From Acheta domesticus (taxonomy: Eukaryota; Arthropoda; Insecta; Orthoptera; Gryllidae): 64,000 nucleotides of DNA. Below, one piece after another: positions 7,631-40,924 of this stretch. The stretch lies in contig JAHLJT010009436.1 in NCBI GenBank assembly GCA_031308135.1, positions 155,580,750 through 155,644,749 on the forward strand, given 5' to 3'. Within the stretch, counting starts at the first letter, position 1. Every line of letters begins with the position of its first letter. The notes beneath the pieces are model-generated. The model had not been told where the DNA came from. It saw nothing but the letters and a program-made list of their open reading frames with translations, and did no database searches. A program made the translations under genes and the position numbers.

Positions 7631-8397
7631 GATTCTTCCCATTAGGCCCGTTGGACGACATCAAGGACACAATTGGAACCGAAGAGGGAAGGATGGATCG
7701 CATACGATATCCGGCGCATTATTTGATGCACAGTCATGATATTTTGATGGAATGGATGAAGGCAACAACGGAAAAGACCAACCATAGAAGCCGGTCTCCA
7801 GGGGCAAGGCATTTGACATGAATACAAATATTAATGCAACTAATCAGGAACAATATGGTTTGATTAGCTTTATTTAGCAAACGCATTTTATGCTGAAAAA
7901 TGTTTCGTTTTTCGATCTTCGAAAAGGTCGAACGTTAACCCTCGGATTCAACGATGCTTAAAATTTGCTGATCATGTTGAGAAGCAGATATTTGTGTGTT
8001 TAAACATAAAGTCGTCACGTGAGTTCATATTTTCTTGAATTTTAAATTACACGAGTGGGTTGTTTAGAAAGTCAAGTCATCTAAAATGGACACGAATTTG
8101 TACCGAATCAGTGCAGAAAGAAGAGAACTTTGAACAGACGTCGTGAATGCCAATGTCAAAAGTTTGTTTCCCATTCATGTAGGAGGAAGACATTTTATCC
8201 ACAGTTGTATTGTTTGTACGCGTGGTGATAAAAAGAAATGCTCTTCTCCCGTCGATTCTCATATTAAATGTGAAGAAAACAAGAGCAGCCTGGGAGGCGT
8301 CTCCAGGGACGCTGAAAAGTCACGACGCAGAAGAGTAGTATGCCAAAGCACGAGGAACCATGAAGCGGAGGGCGGAGGGGGTGCGGTGCGGAGGCGG
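7631..8397. other. Intergenic DNA of mixed composition
   Basis: No gene, RNA or repeat is recognised between island 3 and the 13-bp minisatellite. Confidence 0.5.
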
Positions 8398-8407
8398 GGA
8401 GCATATT

Positions 8408-8933
8408 CGGGGCGCAGAGGCGGGGCGCAGAGGCGGGGCGCAGAGGCGGGGCGCAGAGGCGGGGCGCAGAGGCGGGGCGCAGAGGCGGGGCGCAGAGGCG
8501 GGGCGCAGAGGCGGGCGCAGAGGCGGGGCGGCAGAGGCGGGGCGCAGAGGCGGGGCGCAGAGGCGGGGCGCAGAGGCGGGGCGCAGAGGCGGGGCGCAGA
8601 GGCGGGCGCAGAGGCGGGGCGCGGAGGCGGGGGCGCGGGAGGCGGGGCGCGGAGGCGGGGCGCAGAGGCGGGGCGCAGAGGCGGGGCGCAGAGGCGGGGC
8701 GCAGAGGCGGGGCGCAGAGGCGGGGCGCAGAGGCGGGGCGCAGAGGCGGGGCGCAGAGGCGGGGCGCAGAGGCGGGGCGCAGAGGCGGGGCGCAGAGGCG
8801 GGGCGCAGAGGCGGGGCGCAGAGGCGGGCGCAGAGGCGGGGCGCAGTAGGCGGGGCGCAGAGGCGGGGCGCAGAGGCGGGGCGCAGAGGCGGGGCGCAGA
8901 GGCGGGGTTGCAGAGGCGGGGTGCAGAGGCGGT
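8408..8933. repeat. 13-bp GC-rich minisatellite, about 40 units
   Basis: Tandem copies of AGGCGGGGCGCAG, nearly identical, with a few 12-bp, 10-bp or GCGGGAGG variants (near 8512-8530, 8600-8650 and 8820-8850). Because 13 is not a multiple of three, all frames stay open and read the same 13-residue cycle (RRGAEAGRRGGAQ on plus, the complementary Pro/Arg/Leu cycle on minus). The apparent 240-400 residue ORFs over the array are by-products. Its homogeneity suggests recent expansion. Confidence 0.95.
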
Positions 8934-8940
8934 GGACACC

Positions 8941-9240
8941 AGCGTGGATCGGAGACGGCTGCCGAAGCGACAGTCCAACGAGGACCCGGGCAAGCGGAGG
9001 CATCTGTTTTTGCGCAGGAGTCCGATCGAAAGGAAACATTCCGACGGAAGAGACGCCCCCGCCCCGCCGGACGGGCGCCTCGTTCTTGCTCTGAGGCGGC
9101 GGTGGGCGACCCGCCTCGGACGCCTCGACCTTCGGACATCTGCCGCTTTTCGCCTCGCACCTCCACGATACGCTGCGACCCCTTCTGCACTGCTTCCTCT
9201 AGCGGCTCCGAACTTTTTCTGCCTCCTGCCTGGCGCACAC
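8941..9240. other. CpG-rich island 4 (downstream flank of minisatellite)
   Basis: Non-repetitive CpG-rich sequence following the array. No recognisable protein domain in any frame. Confidence 0.5.
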
Positions 9241-15111: not shown

Positions 15112-15620
15112 AATGGCATCTTCGTCCACTGTGCACCGCCCCACCGGGCGGCGCGGAGCGGCGCGGCAGAGGCGCGGCGGCAGCCCGCCTTTTTATCAGG
15201 CTCCTTTTTGTGCCTGCCCCGCTCGTTTATTTTTCTCATCTTCTTTTCAATATCCGATTTCACGGCGGCGGCGGAGGCGGCGACCGGGCGGCGCGGCGGC
15301 GGGGCGGCGCTGACGGGGGCGGGGGCGGGGGACGGCGCGGGGCGCTGAGCTGTCACCCTGCAGGTAGCGCGGGAAATTGTTTCTGAGGCGGCGTTGGCGG
15401 CGGGCGAAGACCGCCCTTTTGCCGCCGTTCCCGCCGCCGCCGCCGCCATGTCCGTCGCGCCCCAACGCGTCGAAAAAGGGCGGAATTAGACTGCGGCGGC
15501 GGTGGCGACGGGAGCCGGGGATGGGGGATGGCTGCGCGAAACCGCCGCGCCGCTGAACGCGGCGACGTAGGTCGAGAGCGGGACCGCTTCGCGGAAAGGC
15601 CGTCCGCTGTCTCGGTGGTG
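15112..15620. other. CpG-rich island 9 with embedded GGAATTAG word
   Basis: CpG-rich with (GGCGGC)-like runs. An AT word CGGAATTAGAC lies at about 15481-15491. It directly abuts the 20-bp minisatellite. Open frames of up to 243 residues on the minus strand are Pro/Arg-rich here and repetitive beyond, and carry no domain. Confidence 0.55.
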
Positions 15621-15630
15621 GTGAGAATGG

Positions 15631-15955
15631 TTGAGGTGAGTTGAGGACGTTTGAGGTGAGTTGAGGACGTTTGAGGTGAGTTGAGGACGTTTGAGGTGAG
15701 TTGAGGACGTTTGAGGTGAGTTGAGGACGTTTGAGGTGAGTTGAGGACGTTTGAGGTGAGTTGAGGACGTTTGAGGTGAGTTGAGGACGTTTGAGGTGAG
15801 TTGAGGACGTTTGAGGTGAGGGGAGGACGTTTGAGGTGAGGGGAGGGCGTTTGAGGTGAGGGGAGGGCGTTTGAGGTGAGGGGGGACGTTTGAGGTGAGG
15901 TGAGATAAGGACGTTTGAGGCGAGGGGAGGACGTTTGAGGTGAGGTGAGGTGAGG
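15631..15955. repeat. 20-bp minisatellite; each unit carries a consensus 5' splice-donor word
   Basis: Nine perfect units of TTGAGGTGAGTTGAGGACGT start at 15631 and recur every 20 bp to 15810. About seven diverged units follow, in which TT becomes GG and one is 19 bp. Every perfect plus-strand unit contains GAG|GTGAGT, which matches the metazoan 5' splice-site consensus. On the minus strand the array reads as a 20-residue cycle in open frames. No host exon is evident, so use of these donors is unknown. Confidence 0.95.
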
Positions 15956-16555
15956 CGACTGCAGGTAAGTTGAGACAAGATGTTGGCGGGTTGAGGTAAA
16001 TGAGTAGTAGACGTTAAGTGGCTGTGGGGTTCTCGAGAAAGTCTTCAAGGATTGGTATAATGGAAACTAGAGGATGTTCGAGCGTGGTGTAATGGTCCGG
16101 TGAATGAAAGAGCGAAAGCAACAATGCCGTAAATCTCAACATGGGAGTCTTAGCGCCGTTATAATATTTGAATTTTATAATTGCAGAACGCATATAAATG
16201 ATGAAATATTCCGGTATTAATACATTTTATAATTTTGGGATTGATGTTAACGCAAAATTCTTCACTTGAATTGTTGACCTACAACCAAAACCTCGAAAGG
16301 GGGGGGGTCTTGCTTAATTCAGGTACACGGACTTTAGAGTATTGCTCTAAACGGAAGAAAAATATTCTGTAACGAATCATTTCGTCCGTATTTGCTTCTA
16401 AAAGATCCTCAGTCTGTGCTAAGGTAGCTTGTTAACGCATATCGATGCTTAGAAGATTTCAACAATATTTCGACTTAATTTTCACATTTTTTGACAGTTA
16501 ATTCTTTATTGACCAAGGTATAACTAGTGTTTCTCATAAATGTTGTTTAATGCAT
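15956..16555. other. AT-rich intergenic DNA
   Basis: Nothing recognised. Confidence 0.5.
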
Positions 16556-27430: not shown

Positions 27431-27666
27431 TATACTTCGGTTTTTCTTTCTTGGCGCGTGGGGGGGTGTCATCAAAATGGAATATCTCACGGTTTTTCGC
27501 GTCGTTCTCGGTTGTGTAGGTAGGCGTCGTATGATCGCCCGCACTGCTCGATACAGTTGTGATCATGCGAATCCTAGCGGCACATTGGAAACGACGCAAA
27601 ATACCGTGAGATATTCCATTTTGATGACCCCTCCCCCACGCGCCCAGAAAGAAAAACTCAAGTATA
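27431..27666. mobile_element. Fold-back MITE with about 106-bp inverted arms
   Basis: Nearly the entire 236 bp is an imperfect palindrome. The left arm (27431-27537) and the right arm (27561-27666) share, in inverted orientation, TATACTT, GTTTTTCTTTCT, GGCGCGTGGGGG, a 20-base ATCAAAATGGAATATCTCAC core, GCGTCGTT and CATGATC/TATGATC. The central loop is about 23 bases. It encodes no protein. Non-autonomous fold-back or MITE elements have this form. A TA target duplication is possible but cannot be told from the palindrome end. An RNA across it would make a long hairpin. Confidence 0.85.
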
Positions 27667-28060: not shown

Positions 28061-29040
28061 GAATTTAAATAACCCAGTCCGTTGGGACTGCATTTCTTAT
28101 TTATCTCTTTTTCCCAAAGCCTGTATTTAGGACCGATTACCTAACCTCTTTGTACTTCTTAGGTTGACAAATAATGCGTTACCTTTAGTAGTCCTGATAT
28201 TCGATGTATTTACGCGTTTGTATTCGACAGATTGTAAAATACAGGACTTTTTATGTAAACATTGGTTTTTAAATTAAAGACCATTTCGTGTCCTCTATTT
28301 CAAAATAAAGTAGTAGATGCAACCCAATAAGAGTGTTGCGCGCAAGGTGTAAATGAAGTACACTTTTTTTTATCTACCATTCTTGGAGTATGGACTCTCA
28401 GCAAAATTGAATAACTCTTGATTTGCTTAAGTAGCAAATTCTGTGGAAAGGTTTTTCATTCAGATACTATTCTCGTTACATACATTAGCATTTATGAATG
28501 TTGAGAATCTTCATCTTAAATCTAGCAAGTACAAATATTGTTTAATATGGAAATGGCGCTCCCGGACACCTGTCCGGAACGACCTGTCGCGTGCAGCCCG
28601 TTTCTCGTCTGGCGGCGTTCAATTTGCGTCCGCAAACACTCGCTAAGCGCGCGCCGAGTGTTACGTGTGCAGGTTTCGCAAAGGCAACTGGAGCGGCGAG
28701 GTGCGCAACTTCTTCGCTCGTTTCGTGCCTCTGGAACTTGTGCACTTTGTCTCTACTTGCGACGCGGCGTACAGTGCCAGTTGCCCCGCTTGTTTTGTGC
28801 TCCATCCACGCTCTTCTTCCTGCAGCGTTCTCCGGGCTCGATTCCCTGTCTTCCTTCCAGAATCTTGCGGACCTTCTGGTGGTTTAAAACTATTTGTTTT
28901 TTCTCCACTGTTCCTTGAGTCTTCCCCTTTCTGCATCACGTACCAGACTACTGACCGGTCTCGTCTTATCCAATCCTATTCAACTTTGTCTGTGATTCTA
29001 CTTTGCCATATTCAATTCTGTCCATCCTATTCGAATACTG
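28061..29040. other. AT-rich DNA with moderate GC block at 28555-28860
   Basis: The GC block has several open frames with Cys/Arg/Ser content but no recognisable domain. No gene call is made. Confidence 0.45.
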
Positions 29041-29330
29041 TCACATTCAAACCTTCGCCCTGTCTGTTCGATTCAAACCCTAACCTGTCTGTTCTATTCA
29101 AACCCTAACCCTGTCTGTTCTATTCAAACCCTAATCCTGTCTGTTCTATTCAAACCCTAACCCTGTCTGTTATATTCAAACCCTAACCCTGTCTGTTATA
29201 TTCAAACCCTAACCCTGTCTGTTATATTCAAACCCTAACCCTGTCTGTTCTACTCAAACCCTAACCCTGTCCGTTCTGTTCAAAACGCTGGCCCTGTCTG
29301 TCTTTCTCAAACCATGTCCGTTCGATTCAG
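29041..29330. repeat. 26-bp minisatellite with telomere-like CCCTAACCCT core
   Basis: About ten tandem units of TCTGTTATATTCAAACCCTAACCCTG-type sequence (26 bp; shown by CTGTT, ATTCAAACC and CTAACCCTG blocks), clean in the centre and decayed at both ends. The core CCCTAACCCT on plus reads AGGGTTAGGG on minus. It is embedded in a longer unit, so it is not a simple telomeric array. Confidence 0.93.
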
Positions 29331-29399
29331 TCTGCTATTTCTCTCCGTCGTGTACTTCATTCACTGCTGATTTTATGTTAAACCTGCTACCCCGGCTGT

Positions 29400-34960: not shown

Positions 34961-36102
34961 CGCTGCTCGTTCATCTATGTGCATTTACTTCGATTCCTGT
35001 GTTTGGCTTTTATTATAGAGAACTTTCCTTTTAACTTTTTTTCGTTTTCCTTTATTTTCTGCATCTTATTTATCCGTATTCTTAAGTGTATATCGCATTT
35101 CCCTTCTCTACTAATGTTGCCACCCGACTCTCATTGCTACTTGTTTTTCTACGTTCTATTATCTACTACTTTGATTCCATCTCACAGCATAATTCTTCTT
35201 TCGTTTCCTCCGTTCTCTTTTTTTTCATTTTCCGTATCCTTTTTCACAGCCTTTTCTTTTTTTTGTAATTTAATTTCTGTTTATCTTATTTGTCTCCATG
35301 TTTCCACCTTTCTTAGACCAAAGGATCATCATTGATTATATCTCCTTATCCAAATATTCTGTGAGTAAAATTGCCCTTAGAATCCTCAGTGCTCAAAGCT
35401 GAAAAATATTGATTAGTAGCTTCAAATATTTGACTAATGTACTGGGGCATTCTTTTCACGTATGTATCTAAATGAACGGAAAAGTTAAAATGTGAATCAA
35501 TTAATTATAGTGCTTTTTAAAGCGTGCTTCTAATTTCATCTTCTCCCCAATGTTGCATTTTGTGTTTCCATGTTTCGACCCGGAGGTTTTAGCGAGTAGG
35601 AAGTTCAAAATGGGTCTATTCACAGATGATAGTATCTTTTTATATAGCTGTAAGATTGTCTATCGGTTTGGCCATGTGGATTTCACTGTGAATGTGAGAA
35701 GTATATTATCTTTTTACCTCTGACCTTATTGCAGCATTTTATATCCCCTTTCAATCTTGAGACTGACTGGAGATCCATATGAATTCTTCACTCCCACTCA
35801 CCCTTTCACCCTCCTCACTCCCACTTTCTTGAGTGTCAACTCGACTTCTTGCTCCCGTTCAAGTAATGAAGTTAATATGTGCACCTGAAAAAGACCCCTT
35901 AAAGACGATCGAAACGTGGTTGTGTTTCAATTTTATATTGAACCTTTTAAATATGTAATAACTGTTTTCTTTAACGTGTATTCACCTCTATTTGATTTAA
36001 AAAGTAAATTGATTTTGTGTCTGATTGTGGCATTAGATTTGTCATAATATTTGATATAATAAACGAAATGTGTAGGCTGCATAGACTATGCATTTCATCT
36101 AA
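34961..36102. other. AT-rich intergenic DNA
   Basis: T-rich at first. At 35884-35918 a CCTGAAAAAGACC...GATCGAAACGT motif resembles words seen at ends of Penelope-like elements. A TGCATAGACTATGCA palindrome lies near 36078. No gene is recognised. Confidence 0.45.

Positions 36103-36154
<52 letters not shown>
36103..36154. repeat. (TTA)n microsatellite, left flank of truncated R4/Dong copy
   Basis: A pure TTA/TAA tract of about 52 bp. On the minus strand it forms the 3' tail or target of the element copy that starts at 36155. Confidence 0.95.
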
Positions 36155-36155
<1 letters not shown>

Positions 36156-36633
36156 CATTACATCACGACTAAAGATGTTATGAGTCGGCTGAATATAAAA
36201 TCTACTCCAGGTTGCAACCAGCTACCTAAGGAGCAGATTCGGTGACTATCAGTGCCTCTACAATACTTTGCGCAAAATGTGGGCTGTTCCAAATAAAGCA
36301 ATTTCTTGCACTTCCCAGTCTTTTGAATTACCTGGGAGTTTAGACAAGTTCTTACTCAAATTTTGCGGAACAAATCCCAGAGCTCCAATAACTATTGGGA
36401 CGACCTGTGCTTTTACGCCCCACATTCGGCTGATCTCGATTTCCAAACTCTTGTATTTAAGACGTTTCTCTGCTTCCTTGGTAACGACGTTTTGATCGCA
36501 AGGTACAGCAACATCGATAAGTAAACACGATTTTTTCGCCAAATCCCGAATCACTATACCCGGTTTGTTTGCCGCTATCGTGCGATCAGTTTGAATTTGT
36601 TGGTCGTACAATATCGTACACAATCCAACAGAC
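36155..36633 (-). mobile_element. 5'-truncated R4/Dong-like element copy
   Basis: Matches the 3' end of the full-length neighbour (36696 onward) almost base for base. It ends abruptly at 36633, where the match to 37174 in the full copy stops and (TTA)n begins. 5' truncation is the usual outcome of incomplete target-primed reverse transcription. Both sides are TTA tract, so it was inserted in, or duplicated with, the microsatellite. Confidence 0.9.
36258..36633 (-). pseudogene. C-terminal fragment of R4/Dong polyprotein (restriction-like endonuclease region)
   Basis: Reads about 121 residues equal to residues 1083-1203 of the intact neighbour. Only three internal residue differences are seen (N for K, G for D, A for S). 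The frame is still open but lacks a start, RT and zinc knuckle. The D-to-G change falls in the conserved KPD of the restriction-like endonuclease, so the fragment lost a presumed catalytic acid. The near identity means the two copies diverged recently. Confidence 0.88.

Positions 36634-36695
<62 letters not shown>
36634..36695. repeat. (TTA)n microsatellite between the two R4/Dong copies
   Basis: About 62 bp of pure TTA/TAA. It is the 5' flank of the truncated copy and the 3' flank of the full-length copy. Confidence 0.95.
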
Positions 36696-36696
<1 letters not shown>

Positions 36697-36798
36697 CATT
36701 ACATCACGACTAAAGATGTTATGAGTCGGCTGAATATAAAATCTACTCCAGGTTGCAACCAGCTACCTAAGGAGCAGATCCGGTGACTACCAGTGCCT

Positions 36799-39700
36799 CT
36801 ACAATACTTTACGCAAAATGTGGGCTGTTCCAAATAAAGCTATTTCTTGCACTTCCCAGTCTTTCGAATTACCAGGGAGTTTAGACAAGTTCTTACTCAA
36901 ATTTTGCGGAACAAATCCCAGAGCTCCGATTACTATCGGGACGACCTGTGCTTTTACGCCCCACATTCGGCTGATCTCGATTTCCAAACTCTTGTATTTA
37001 AGACGTTTCTCTGCCTCCTTGGTAACGACGTTTTGATCGCAAGGTACAGCAACATCGATAAGTAAACACGATTTTTTCGACAAATCCCGGATAACTATAT
37101 CCGGTTTCTTTGCCGCTATCGTGCGATCAGTTTGAATTTGTTGGTCGTACAATATCGTACACAATCCAACAGACGTCACCGGTTTTGGTGAGTGTTCGTA
37201 CCACTTGGGGCATGTGTTTGGAACTTCGAGGGCGGTACAGATCTGCCAGTGGAGGTAGCTACACACCCTGTCATGTCTTTTCAGGTATTCCGTCTTTGCT
37301 AGGATTGGACAAGCTGAGACAATATGATCAATGGTTTCTACTTGCTCCAGGCAAATGCGGCATTTATCATCTTGGGAAATTTTGAGAACCGCTTTATCAT
37401 AATGTCGTGTTCTCAAGGCCTGATCTTGGGCAGCTATTGCAAGTGCTTCCGATTCTGGCTTCATTCTTCCCCTTTTAAGCCACATAAATGATTGATCTTT
37501 ATTGATCTGCACCTTGTCCATTCTTTTTAGGTATTGGCCGTGGAGTGGTTTGTCTCTCCACGATTTCTTTAACATTTTTTGTGTTTCACACTTCATGTTT
37601 AGCAGCATCAGAAGTTCAGTGTCTGTGTTATTCGACGTGTCTTGCCTAGTTTTCTTCGCAATGCTTCTAGCTACACTAACAATGCCTCTGTTTCCCATTC
37701 TTCGGTCAGATTTCATGACCTGCCTCATTAGAGGGTCGTCTTGATGGCTGACTACATACTTTCCCATCCCGACTATTGCGTTGTGCCAGGAGGCCTCAAT
37801 TTGTCTGAGGCCTCTTCCTCCTTCCTTACGTGACACACAAAGTCTATGTATATCAGCTCGAGGGTGGGCAACATGATGCATTGTTAGCAGTTTTCTGGTT
37901 TTTCGATCCATGGTGCGAATTTCCTGCTCAGTCCAGTTCACTAGTCCAAAACTGTATTCGGCTACAGGTACCGCCAAACTACCTATTGCAGAAATTTTAT
38001 TCCTGGAATTCAGAGCGGACTGCAGGACCAGTCTCACTCTCCTATAATACTCCCTACGAATTCTCTCTTTCATTCTGTCGTTCAAGATGGTTTCACATTC
38101 TTCAATGCCCAGAAATTTGTAAGTTTTACCTGGCTCCAGATCTTGAATCACAGTGTGCGTATCAATTTCAATGTTCTCAGACGTTGTGAGTTTCCCTCTT
38201 TTTAAATTGATTTTTGCACACTTGTCAAGACCAAACTTCATGCAGATGTCATTGCTAAAGTCATTCACGACAGACAGCATTTGGGAGAGAATCGCTTCAT
38301 TCTTAGCAAACACTTTCAGATCATCCATGTAAAACAAATGTGATACTGGCCTTTCATCACCATGGAGCTTAAAACCAAAGTCAGCTTGCGACAACTGTCT
38401 CGATAGTGGGATCAAACTAATGCAAAACAGCAGAGGGGATAGTGAATCTCCTTGAAAAATACCCCTGTTAATCTGAATACTTCTGGTTTCTACTGCTTCC
38501 TTTCCGCTGTGGATTAGTAACCTGGTACTCCACGACTTCATACTAGCCTTGCAAAATTCAATAAGTCTAGGATGAAATCGATAGATCTCCAGGGTCTTCA
38601 AAATCCAATCGTGTGGTACACTATCAAAGGCCTTTTGGTAGTCAATCCAAGCCATGCTCAAATTACGTTTGCGTTTCTTTACATCATTCAAGATGACTTT
38701 ATTCAGGAGCAAGATTTCCTTACAGCCATAAGAGCCTTTACGACATCCTTTTTGTTCAGCTGGCATTAGATGATTCTTATCTAGATGTCTGTACATTTTG
38801 TCAGCTATGGCTGAAGTTATAACTTTGTACAGTACTGGCAGACAAGTAATTGGCCTGTAGTTCTTCGCCAAAGAGCTGTCTCCCGCTTTGGGTAGCAAAT
38901 ACGTGATGCCGCGTGTGAGCCATTCCGGGATTTCCTTTGGGTTTTCAAAAATTTTATTAACAGCCTTTGCTAGATGAGAATGTATTGCTGTTAGTTTCTT
39001 AATCCAATAAATCTGGATCTTATCAATCCCGGGGGACTTCCAGTTTCCCATGTTCTTAATTGCTTGGAAGAGGTCCTCTTCCGAGAATTCGTGAACATCT
39101 TCCACTGTTTCTACATGTTCATCGGCAGCATCAACTTCAGATTGAAGCCAAGATGCGTCTTTGTTGTAGGATCTGCTCTCCTCCCAGATTCCTGCCCAAA
39201 ACGCTTCGACGTCTTCTTTTGAAGGAGTGACAGCTTTGCCATTCGGTTTTTGAGTCAGATTGCGATAGAATCTCTTCGCGTCTGTTTCAAACAACCGGTT
39301 CTGTACACGGAAATCTATTCTATGTTTGTAACGTCTAATTCTTTGAGCCCATGCTTGAATTTTCTCTTTTAGCTTTTCAACTACCATTAGCCTGCTGGTG
39401 TCATTTTCAATTTGGTATTTTAGTTCAACATTTAATATTTTTCGTTGAACTTTAGAGGTGTGCATTGATTTAGAAGATGCCTCAGCTAAGAGTGATATTT
39501 CGCGCCGGGTGTCGGCTATCCGTTTCCTAATTCTGTTCATCCATGGGGGTACAGAGCTGTTTACTCTGTTTTGCTGTTGGCCGTCGGTGTTCTTGGCTGG
39601 CCCCAAAATTATCTGAGATACTAGATATCCAGTTGCATATATGATGTGATTGATTTTAGTAATATCTAGATCTCTGCCTGAGGTCTCCACCACCTCATTT

Positions 39701-40410
39701 AAGACAGAATTCACTGTTTCTATCACTCTTTTAGCTTTGGCAGTTTCGTATATTCTCCTCAACGGTTTGCGAGATTCAAACGGAAGTTGACTAACTCTTT
39801 CTATCTCGCGCCGAAGGAGATTTCGCATTATGTCCTTATCGTGTAATTCATTGCCAGATGAACTTTCACCACTGACGTGTGTTTCACTGGAAAGAGATGA
39901 ACCTTCCACGGGATCATTTTCAAGTTCTACATGTTCGTCATGTGGGTTGTTCGAGCGAAGTACATACTCCGCATTTCTCTCAATGTCAGCAAGTTGTTCT
40001 GCTGTGAATTTTCCACTGCTGAGTATGTATCGTCGTTGACTGGCAAGCTTCTTTGAGTCTAGGGTAGGTCTCATATCTGGGTTCCGCTCTCTCCATACCT
40101 TGAAAACTTCTATTTCTGAGCCCCCATTTTTCGCTTTTGCATAGTAAAAGCACCACATCACCTCCTTTAATTCATCCCGGGTCCATCTCTGACGATGGCT
40201 TCGAGCTACTGCCGGCTCTGGGTCCCTGGGACTAACATCCGTGAGATGGCCAGACGTCGACAAGGTGACATTAGCTCGGTTTCTGAGCAGGTATGGGACA
40301 TTGGTAGAACAAGGCACGTTAAGGTTCATTACATTGCTTGTTCTATCCATTTTGCTCATTGGTTTGAATTGAAGATTCGCAGGACGCAAGTTCGAGTTCA
40401 CAGACCACAC
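36799..40410 (-). CDS. R4/Dong-type polyprotein: reverse transcriptase with restriction-like endonuclease
   Basis: 1203 residues, uninterrupted. The first Met at 40410 is taken as start, and its context was not otherwise tested. The N-terminal region has a basic, Trp-containing RQRWTRDEL segment (residues 73-81) that may bind DNA (Myb-like, uncertain). The RT spans about 455-770, with NYRPITCLPVLYKVI (517-531), AWIDYQKAFDSVPHDW (587-602, D590), IFQGDSLSPLLF (651-662) and YMDDL (694-698, D696/D697). A CCHC knuckle is C1017, C1020, H1029, C1034. The restriction-like endonuclease follows, with KPD (1102-1104) and LLIDV (D1119). It would nick the TAA target and prime reverse transcription of the element RNA. 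One ORF and this domain order fit R4/Dong; R2, NeSL and HERO are related alternatives. All listed catalytic residues are present, so the enzyme may be active. Confidence 0.93.
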   Translation of the reverse strand: MWSVNSNLRPANLQFKPMSKMDRTSNVMNLNVPCSTNVPYLLRNRANVTLSTSGHLTDVSPRDPEPAVARSHRQRWTRDELKEVMWCFYYAKAKNGGSEIEVFKVWRERNPDMRPTLDSKKLASQRRYILSSGKFTAEQLADIERNAEYVLRSNNPHDEHVELENDPVEGSSLSSETHVSGESSSGNELHDKDIMRNLLRREIERVSQLPFESRKPLRRIYETAKAKRVIETVNSVLNEVVETSGRDLDITKINHIIYATGYLVSQIILGPAKNTDGQQQNRVNSSVPPWMNRIRKRIADTRREISLLAEASSKSMHTSKVQRKILNVELKYQIENDTSRLMVVEKLKEKIQAWAQRIRRYKHRIDFRVQNRLFETDAKRFYRNLTQKPNGKAVTPSKEDVEAFWAGIWEESRSYNKDASWLQSEVDAADEHVETVEDVHEFSEEDLFQAIKNMGNWKSPGIDKIQIYWIKKLTAIHSHLAKAVNKIFENPKEIPEWLTRGITYLLPKAGDSSLAKNYRPITCLPVLYKVITSAIADKMYRHLDKNHLMPAEQKGCRKGSYGCKEILLLNKVILNDVKKRKRNLSMAWIDYQKAFDSVPHDWILKTLEIYRFHPRLIEFCKASMKSWSTRLLIHSGKEAVETRSIQINRGIFQGDSLSPLLFCISLIPLSRQLSQADFGFKLHGDERPVSHLFYMDDLKVFAKNEAILSQMLSVVNDFSNDICMKFGLDKCAKINLKRGKLTTSENIEIDTHTVIQDLEPGKTYKFLGIEECETILNDRMKERIRREYYRRVRLVLQSALNSRNKISAIGSLAVPVAEYSFGLVNWTEQEIRTMDRKTRKLLTMHHVAHPRADIHRLCVSRKEGGRGLRQIEASWHNAIVGMGKYVVSHQDDPLMRQVMKSDRRMGNRGIVSVARSIAKKTRQDTSNNTDTELLMLLNMKCETQKMLKKSWRDKPLHGQYLKRMDKVQINKDQSFMWLKRGRMKPESEALAIAAQDQALRTRHYDKAVLKISQDDKCRICLEQVETIDHIVSACPILAKTEYLKRHDRVCSYLHWQICTALEVPNTCPKWYEHSPKPVTSVGLCTILYDQQIQTDRTIAAKKPDIVIRDLSKKSCLLIDVAVPCDQNVVTKEAEKRLKYKSLEIEISRMWGVKAQVVPIVIGALGFVPQNLSKNLSKLPGNSKDWEVQEIALFGTAHILRKVL

Positions 40411-40863
40411 TTAACCTTCGGGTTGTTTCCTGCCATCCGTTACTGCGACCCACAGTGGCCTCGGGGCATCCCCCCGCAGGGCCCAGCAAGGGGTCCCTCC
40501 GATCGCCAGTCGGCATTACTAAACCCTACGGGATTTTCACTGACTGCTGAAGGCAGCCTCCTTCGCTGGCTAATGCAAGGTTCGGGCCTCCACTCTAATC
40601 AGTGGCCTGGTGTGCCAACCCAGTTTCTCTCCTGTACCCTCTATGGGCCAACAACAGGAAGTCCAAAGGTTCATAACCCTTCCCTCTGTACTTACTTCCC
40701 ACTCTCCTCAAAATGGAGTACTTCTTCGTCTGACCCCTCACCTTCAACCTATTCAGCAAGGGAGGCCCTACCGGTAGCTAGGCTACCACTGACATAGCTT
40801 TAAGGCTCGTGGGGGTACTCAAGCTCCACCACCAACTGCAAGGTCGTGTACTCCCTAGGTGGA

Positions 40864-40864
<1 letters not shown>
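40411..40864 (-). promoter_or_regulatory. 5' UTR / internal promoter region of the R4/Dong element
   Basis: 454 bp upstream of the ORF with no conserved coding potential on the element strand. Non-LTR elements need an internal promoter or co-transcription with their target. As this element sits in a microsatellite, an internal promoter is expected here, but no core motif is identified with certainty. The outermost 150 bp is the shared module. Confidence 0.6.
40715..40864 (-). promoter_or_regulatory. 5'-terminal shared module with pseudoknot-forming strands
   Basis: Begins at the first base after the (TAA)n tract. It matches 2618-2770 of the APE LINE by eye. Strand CTCCACC (40858-40864) can pair with GGTGGAG (40824-40830). 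Strand GGGAGTAC (40848-40855) can pair with GTACCCC (40812-40818) around one bulged A. The helices interleave as in an H-type pseudoknot, and ACC/GGT can close the inner loop. GGTAGC/GCTACC forms a hairpin at 40773-40787. Terminal self-cleaving RNAs occur in several non-LTR groups. This fold lacks the long P4 arm and clear catalytic bases of that class, so ribozyme activity is only a hypothesis. Confidence 0.65.
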
Positions 40865-40915
<51 letters not shown>

Positions 40916-40924
40916 TATTATTAT
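40865..40924. repeat. (TTA)n microsatellite, 5' flank of full-length R4/Dong element
   Basis: About 60 bp of TTA/TAA with a small interruption (TATATTA) near 40911. It directly follows the first base of the element. Confidence 0.95.

Follow-up and report, generated by a model that had tools for sequence, protein, structure and literature searches.

A predicted HDV-like ribozyme module at the 5′ ends of LINEs of two endonuclease classes in Acheta domesticus

One 5′ module on two kinds of LINE

The window analyzed here, a stretch of 64,000 nucleotides of Acheta domesticus DNA, contains two retrotransposons of different endonuclease classes, which raises the question of how their 5′ ends came to carry the same sequence of about 150 nucleotides. 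The first is an R4/Dong-type element on the minus strand, whose open frame of 1203 codons (36799 to 40410) encodes a reverse transcriptase (PF00078, 7.9e-29). Its protein is 60% identical to its nearest relative over residues 400 to 900, at full cover, and a restriction-like endonuclease (RLE) and a zinc motif were spotted by eye, zf-RVT scoring below its cut-off. The 5′ terminus of this element directly adjoins a TAA microsatellite (40865 to 40924). An R4 copy truncated at its 5′ end (36100 to 36640) adjoins the full-length one (36641 to 40864), with 97% identity over 534 nt, and both are flanked by TTA repeats, suggesting repeated insertion into one microsatellite.

The second element, referred to here as LINE-A, is an APE-type LINE, also on the minus strand. 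Its body (5′ UTR, endonuclease and reverse transcriptase; 1 to 2617) is split into several broken frames and leaves the window into a stretch of Ns. On a read-through of these frames, the endonuclease (Exo_endo_phos, PF03372, 43.1 bits, 5.5e-11) and the reverse transcriptase (RVT_1, PF00078, 59.1 bits, 6.3e-16) scored over their cut-offs and PF14529 (26.4 bits) under its own. The 13 best homologs of the read-through are 861 to 981 aa long and 41 to 51% identical to it; the names of some of them, craniofacial development protein 2 for instance, suggest that the element is of RTE type. The proteins of the R4 and LINE-A bodies match at 24% over 90 aa (E = 0.008). Elsewhere, the window holds an inverted repeat at 27460 to 27636, a fold-back structure with 47-nt arms that are 91% complementary and 83 nt apart, and tandem arrays at 8273 to 9200, 15562 to 15970 and 29023 to 29334, with units of about 13, 20 and 26 nt.

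Alignment of the R4/Dong-type 5′ end (40864 to 40715) with that of the APE LINE (2770 to 2618), both on the minus strand, gave 124 identical columns out of 151 (82%) with two 1-nt gaps, the module measuring 150 nt on the R4 side and 153 nt on the LINE side. The agreement is thus better than the three quarters, nearly without gaps, estimated by eye in the initial annotation. The local alignment scored 159, whereas none of 200 shuffles exceeded 24, and the pair was recovered by BLAST within the window with an E value of 1.6e-36; BLAST found no third copy of the module in the window. The local alignment starts 2 to 3 nt inside both 5′ termini and ends 1 nt past the inner edge (40714 / 2617), and the 5′ UTRs beyond it have no clear similarity (score of 32; shuffled sequences reached 31 at the 95th percentile and 40 at most). 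The homology of the two modules and their junctions are matters of observation, and the annotation was right to place the module at the exact 5′ terminus, with similarity ending at its inner edge, and to describe one module on elements of different endonuclease classes. The two bodies do not align.

Linkage of module and body in the genome

The 2.33-Gb genome of the host was searched with each module. All 30 candidates returned by the R4 module were scored, and an R4 body stood behind 28 of them, the window copy included. Of the other two, one (C1707; L032/L038) is joined to a third, divergent APE and reverse transcriptase body, LINE-B, found in one copy, and one (L036/L039) is half a module with no recognized body. 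These R4-module counts are lower bounds, as two extra R4 modules turned up in fetched flanks (L018:4722 and L030:173); copies were classified on about 500 nt of body, and the body side was retrieved for 20. The LINE-module query gave 836 first-look candidates, the best 40 of which were scored, all 97 to 100% identical, and the same LINE 5′ UTR lay behind the module in 40 of these 40. They were chosen by module similarity and comprise the window copy and 39 others with their surrounding DNA; for L064 and L067, the stretch taken held just 244 nt of LINE body. Because the 28 R4-module matches and all scored LINE-module matches carry the matching body, the module forms the 5′ end of the R4 and LINE-A families alike.

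With a single LINE copy in the window, the LINE might simply have landed beside an R4 fragment, and the initial annotation had pointed to a junction inside the LINE 5′ UTR as what would speak against a shared module. Joined as they are to the same LINE 5′ UTR, the 40 scored copies (best 40 of 836) exclude such a junction; chance adjacency is rejected for these copies, and its probability is negligible. The annotation's other objection, LINE copies lacking the module, is addressed in part by these 40, chosen as they were by module similarity. As support for exchange, the annotation had named many bodies behind one module. There are three, which goes part of the way, the third being known from one copy. 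In viral and prokaryote contigs, exact patterns detected no occurrence of the module and a protein search no relatives of R4.

The R4 terminus was compared in 31 rows, namely the window copy, 29 further R4 copies and L039, whose body was not recognized. CTCC stands at the expected first module base in 27 of them, 25 times after AA of the microsatellite, and the remaining rows (L025, L033, L035 and L039) are truncated or diverged. At least eight YAA triplets occur in the upstream 60 nt in 28 of the 30 nonwindow rows (29 R4-body copies and L039), L012 and L035 being the exceptions. On different contigs, the R4 copies L010 and L011 have an identical 60-nt upstream flank and probably represent a duplicated or haplotypic stretch. 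Among the LINE copies whose 5′ flanks were read, 12 of 13 extend to the C-run, and L073 lacks the first bases. Among these 12 and the window copy, a T precedes six Cs in 10 of 13, for which chance would be about 0.0007 at T = 0.3 in a test picked post hoc.

Reverse-oriented pieces of LINE body lie just upstream of the module in L064 and L066, as from inverted or nested insertions. By eye, a AGAAGAGGAC-like motif is repeated just past the inner edge of the module in both APE LINEs (L038:304-360; window, 2617 to 2560, minus strand), and a GAGGAGAG-like stretch occupies this place in R4. Given this motif, the unit common to LINE-A and LINE-B may reach about 12 nt past the module.

Predicted fold of the module

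HDV-like ribozymes form a double pseudoknot in the order P1-P2-P3-P1′-P4-P2′. The C of J4/2 is catalytic in HDV, and P1.1 of these ribozymes consists of two pairs that L3 makes with bases after P1′. The same nested order is present in the predicted fold of both modules. In that of R4 (all coordinates on the minus strand), the 5′ strand of P1, CUCCACC (40858 to 40864), coincides exactly with the element's 5′ end and forms 7 of 7 pairs with GGUGGAG (40824 to 40830), which comes directly after P3′. P2 also has 7 of 7 pairs, between GGAGUAC (40848 to 40854) and GUACUCC (40715 to 40721), the latter being the inner edge of the module. J1/2 is UAG, and P3 (ACC/GGU, 3 of 3 pairs) is closed by an 8-nt L3 loop (40831 to 40844 together). 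The P4 arm opens with ACCCC/GGGGU, a base common to the R4 and LINE modules by eye, and the predicted catalytic C of J4/2 (C-GAA, before P2′) is at 40728.

In the LINE module, also on the minus strand, P1 (UCCCCCC/GGAGGGG; 5′ strand at 2763 to 2769) has 6 of 7 pairs with a C-A mismatch, P2 (3′ strand at 2618 to 2624) 7 of 7 and P3 3 of 3, and the predicted catalytic C, in C-AAA, is at 2631. The P1 mismatch is C-A in 13 of the 14 LINE-A copies read and C-U in L072; in the LINE-B copy found, the P1 5′ strand pairs poorly. For P1.1, judged by eye, the G-C pair is present and the second position is U-U in both elements. Conservation was followed in two sets of rows. A5 consists of 14 hand-picked rows, and A4 of 29 of the 35 possible rows, leaving out L032 and L036 (which repeat L038 and L039), L011 (which repeats L010) and the diverged or partial L035, L037 and L039. 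The predicted catalytic C (C137) is invariant in both sets, as are L3 U1 (U24), G3 and G6 (G29) in the 14 rows of A5; G6 is kept in 28 of 29 rows of A4, with A in L017.

The roles of P1, L3 and J4/2 in HDV-like ribozymes are set out in parts of PMC3774820 and PMC4908430, the former stating the catalytic role of the J4/2 C for the R2 ribozyme. Because P1 sits on the 5′ terminus and the inner edge is formed by the 3′ strand of P2, the predicted fold accounts for both borders of the shared block. The best reading of the module is a predicted self-cleaving ribozyme of the HDV-like kind whose P4 arm is enlarged. This favors, among the origins suggested in the initial annotation, capture of a useful RNA structure at the 5′ end.

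Several controls bear on this prediction. Over the 29 rows of A4, from which the structure itself was drawn, 92.9% of 843 cells are paired, versus 29.6 to 58.5% with the partners slid. Covariation was mixed, as scored on rows that are related to one another and that also served to draw the structure: three pairs changed on both sides, a count reached by 58 of 500 shuffles; five cells changed on both sides, reached by 4 of 500; and the score of 0.055 was reached by 6 of 500. Two of these double changes, U-A to C-G and A-U to G-C, fall within the P4 arm and occur in two rows each, those of the two LINE modules; in the third, seen in a single row, U-A in P1 becomes C-G. Folding the P4 arm by consensus worked poorly. 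A strict descriptor of the fold found 2 placements over the window versus 0.22 expected (maximum of 2; at least 1 in 12 of 60 simulations), and a relaxed one 5 versus 2.8 (maximum of 8). Being too permissive, the descriptor is weak evidence by itself, and what counts is the position of P1 on the terminus. A strict match at 36004 to 36076 (plus strand) is compact, AU-rich and within the chance expectation of 0.22 per window.

Neither module matched an HDV family in Rfam, whether at gathering thresholds or at E values up to 10, which makes membership among HDV-like ribozymes less likely without excluding it; an Rfam match does not define the fold. Sub-threshold matches to CrcZ (E = 0.0014; 20.3 of 95 bits; largely covering the TAA repeat), frnS, sR40 and RFPL3-AS1_1 were taken for chance. 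Since the ribozyme role rests on a predicted fold on which Rfam is silent, the module might instead be an internal promoter or a protein-binding RNA, in which case its exchange would still be real. Pr77 is described as both promoter and ribozyme in the available part of PMC4035085, and both functions may likewise be combined here. A promoter or protein-binding RNA that is not a ribozyme is nevertheless unlikely, as in both elements P1 lies at the exact terminus and P2 at the exact inner edge, with the L3 and J4/2 residues in place, and the Dong precedent cleaves at this very junction (PMC3774820, in part).

Probable exchange between LINE classes

The spread of the module can be judged by comparing it with the bodies behind it. 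The module consensuses, compared with L011, L027, L037 and L039 omitted from both this comparison and the tree, are 83.3% identical between R4 and LINE-A, 86.0% between R4 and LINE-B and 89.3% between LINE-A and LINE-B. The LINE-A and LINE-B bodies, by comparison, align as short scraps of DNA only and as protein pieces of 37 to 154 aa at 22 to 45% identity. That modules 83 to 89% alike precede bodies hardly aligning as DNA argues that the module has changed bodies. Within families, 27 R4 modules average 89.8% alike and 14 LINE-A modules 99.7%, the latter drawn from the best 40 matches and hence giving no date for LINE-A. An unrooted module tree groups LINE-A with LINE-B (0.994), apart from R4, with unsupported placement of the LINE modules among the R4 copies; the older R4 copies L030:4403 and L034 share some LINE states, their local support beside the LINEs being low (0.067 and 0.143).

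Both LINE classes could also have inherited one ancestral HDV-like ribozyme that selection kept alike. Ribozymes of this kind occur in R2, R4, Dong, RTE and L1Tc (parts of PMC3774820), and within the trypanosomatid and R2 clades inheritance rather than transfer has been argued (parts of PMC4035085). However, according to the portion of PMC3774820 concerned with them, R2 ribozyme active sites keep little sequence beyond the catalytic C and four positions, whereas the identity here extends over 82% of 151 columns, P4 arm included, and LINE-A and LINE-B differ far more in their bodies than in their modules. Common descent thus appears quite improbable.

Most probably, then, the shared module is an HDV-like ribozyme 5′ end that was exchanged between LINE classes, most simply via template switching. 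Located within a longer transcript, it would cut itself immediately before its first base, a site that we infer because of the fold and the published Dong, R4, R2 and RTE ribozymes, and the element RNA would thereby start at exactly that base. A reverse transcriptase switching templates onto the RNA of another element, the simplest route, would give the module a new body; reading through an inserted 5′ end is an alternative. Such events would have left the module at the head of three bodies, the RLE-type R4/Dong, the many-copied APE-type LINE-A and the divergent APE-type LINE-B, known from one copy.

Known systems offer partial parallels, described here after the accessible parts of the sources. 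Dong of Bombyx mori and R4 of Ascaris are R4-lineage LINEs with HDV-like ribozymes at their 5′ ends (PMC3774820), as predicted here. Dong likewise sits in TAA repeats, and its ribozyme cleaves in vitro at the TAA junction, releasing a 21-nt fragment made up of 7 TAA repeats; the sequence after these repeats is GCTCCC in the Dong primer (PMC3774820), versus CTCCACC in the window R4. Unlike those of Dong and R4, the cricket module is known from fold prediction and has its sequence in common with APE LINEs. RTE elements, for which PMC3774820 cites Ruminski 2011, are, like LINE-A with its predicted ribozyme, APE-class LINEs whose 5′ terminus bears a ribozyme; unlike here, the consulted part of that source describes no sequence common to them and an R4-class element. 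Pr77 of L1Tc/ingi is one 5′ ribozyme module on many elements, as here, but these all belong to one trypanosomatid clade, and the sharing is attributed to inheritance (PMC4035085, in part). For mammalian LINE-1, 5′ UTR replacement and chimeras are described, and the authors speculate that the element swaps its 5′ UTR through recombination with other RNAs, but in the sections at hand this concerns LINE-1 and its promoter and involves neither a ribozyme nor a second LINE class (PMC13174262). Recombination is described within R2-like elements as well (PMC7650587, in part). In the literature searched, which took in a minority of subscription papers, we encountered no description of one ribozyme, homologous in sequence, that occurs in both RLE and APE LINEs.

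HDV-like ribozymes have a scattered distribution across LINE clades, and their likeness has so far been put to inheritance within a clade (PMC4035085) or to convergence, discussed for their active-site sequences (PMC3774820), as far as the available parts of these papers go. A 150-nt ribozyme alignable between RLE and APE elements offers a concrete case of spread between classes, and with the shared module, the origin of LINE 5′ ends can be tested through module and reverse transcriptase trees. The odds seem about even that this ribozyme acts as a mobile 5′ cassette and that, within a single genome, three LINE lineages belonging to two endonuclease classes have swapped it two or more times, with the many-copied LINE-A riding on an exchanged ribozyme. 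If this is true, LINEs can acquire the ability to trim themselves from host transcripts by way of another element's 5′ end.
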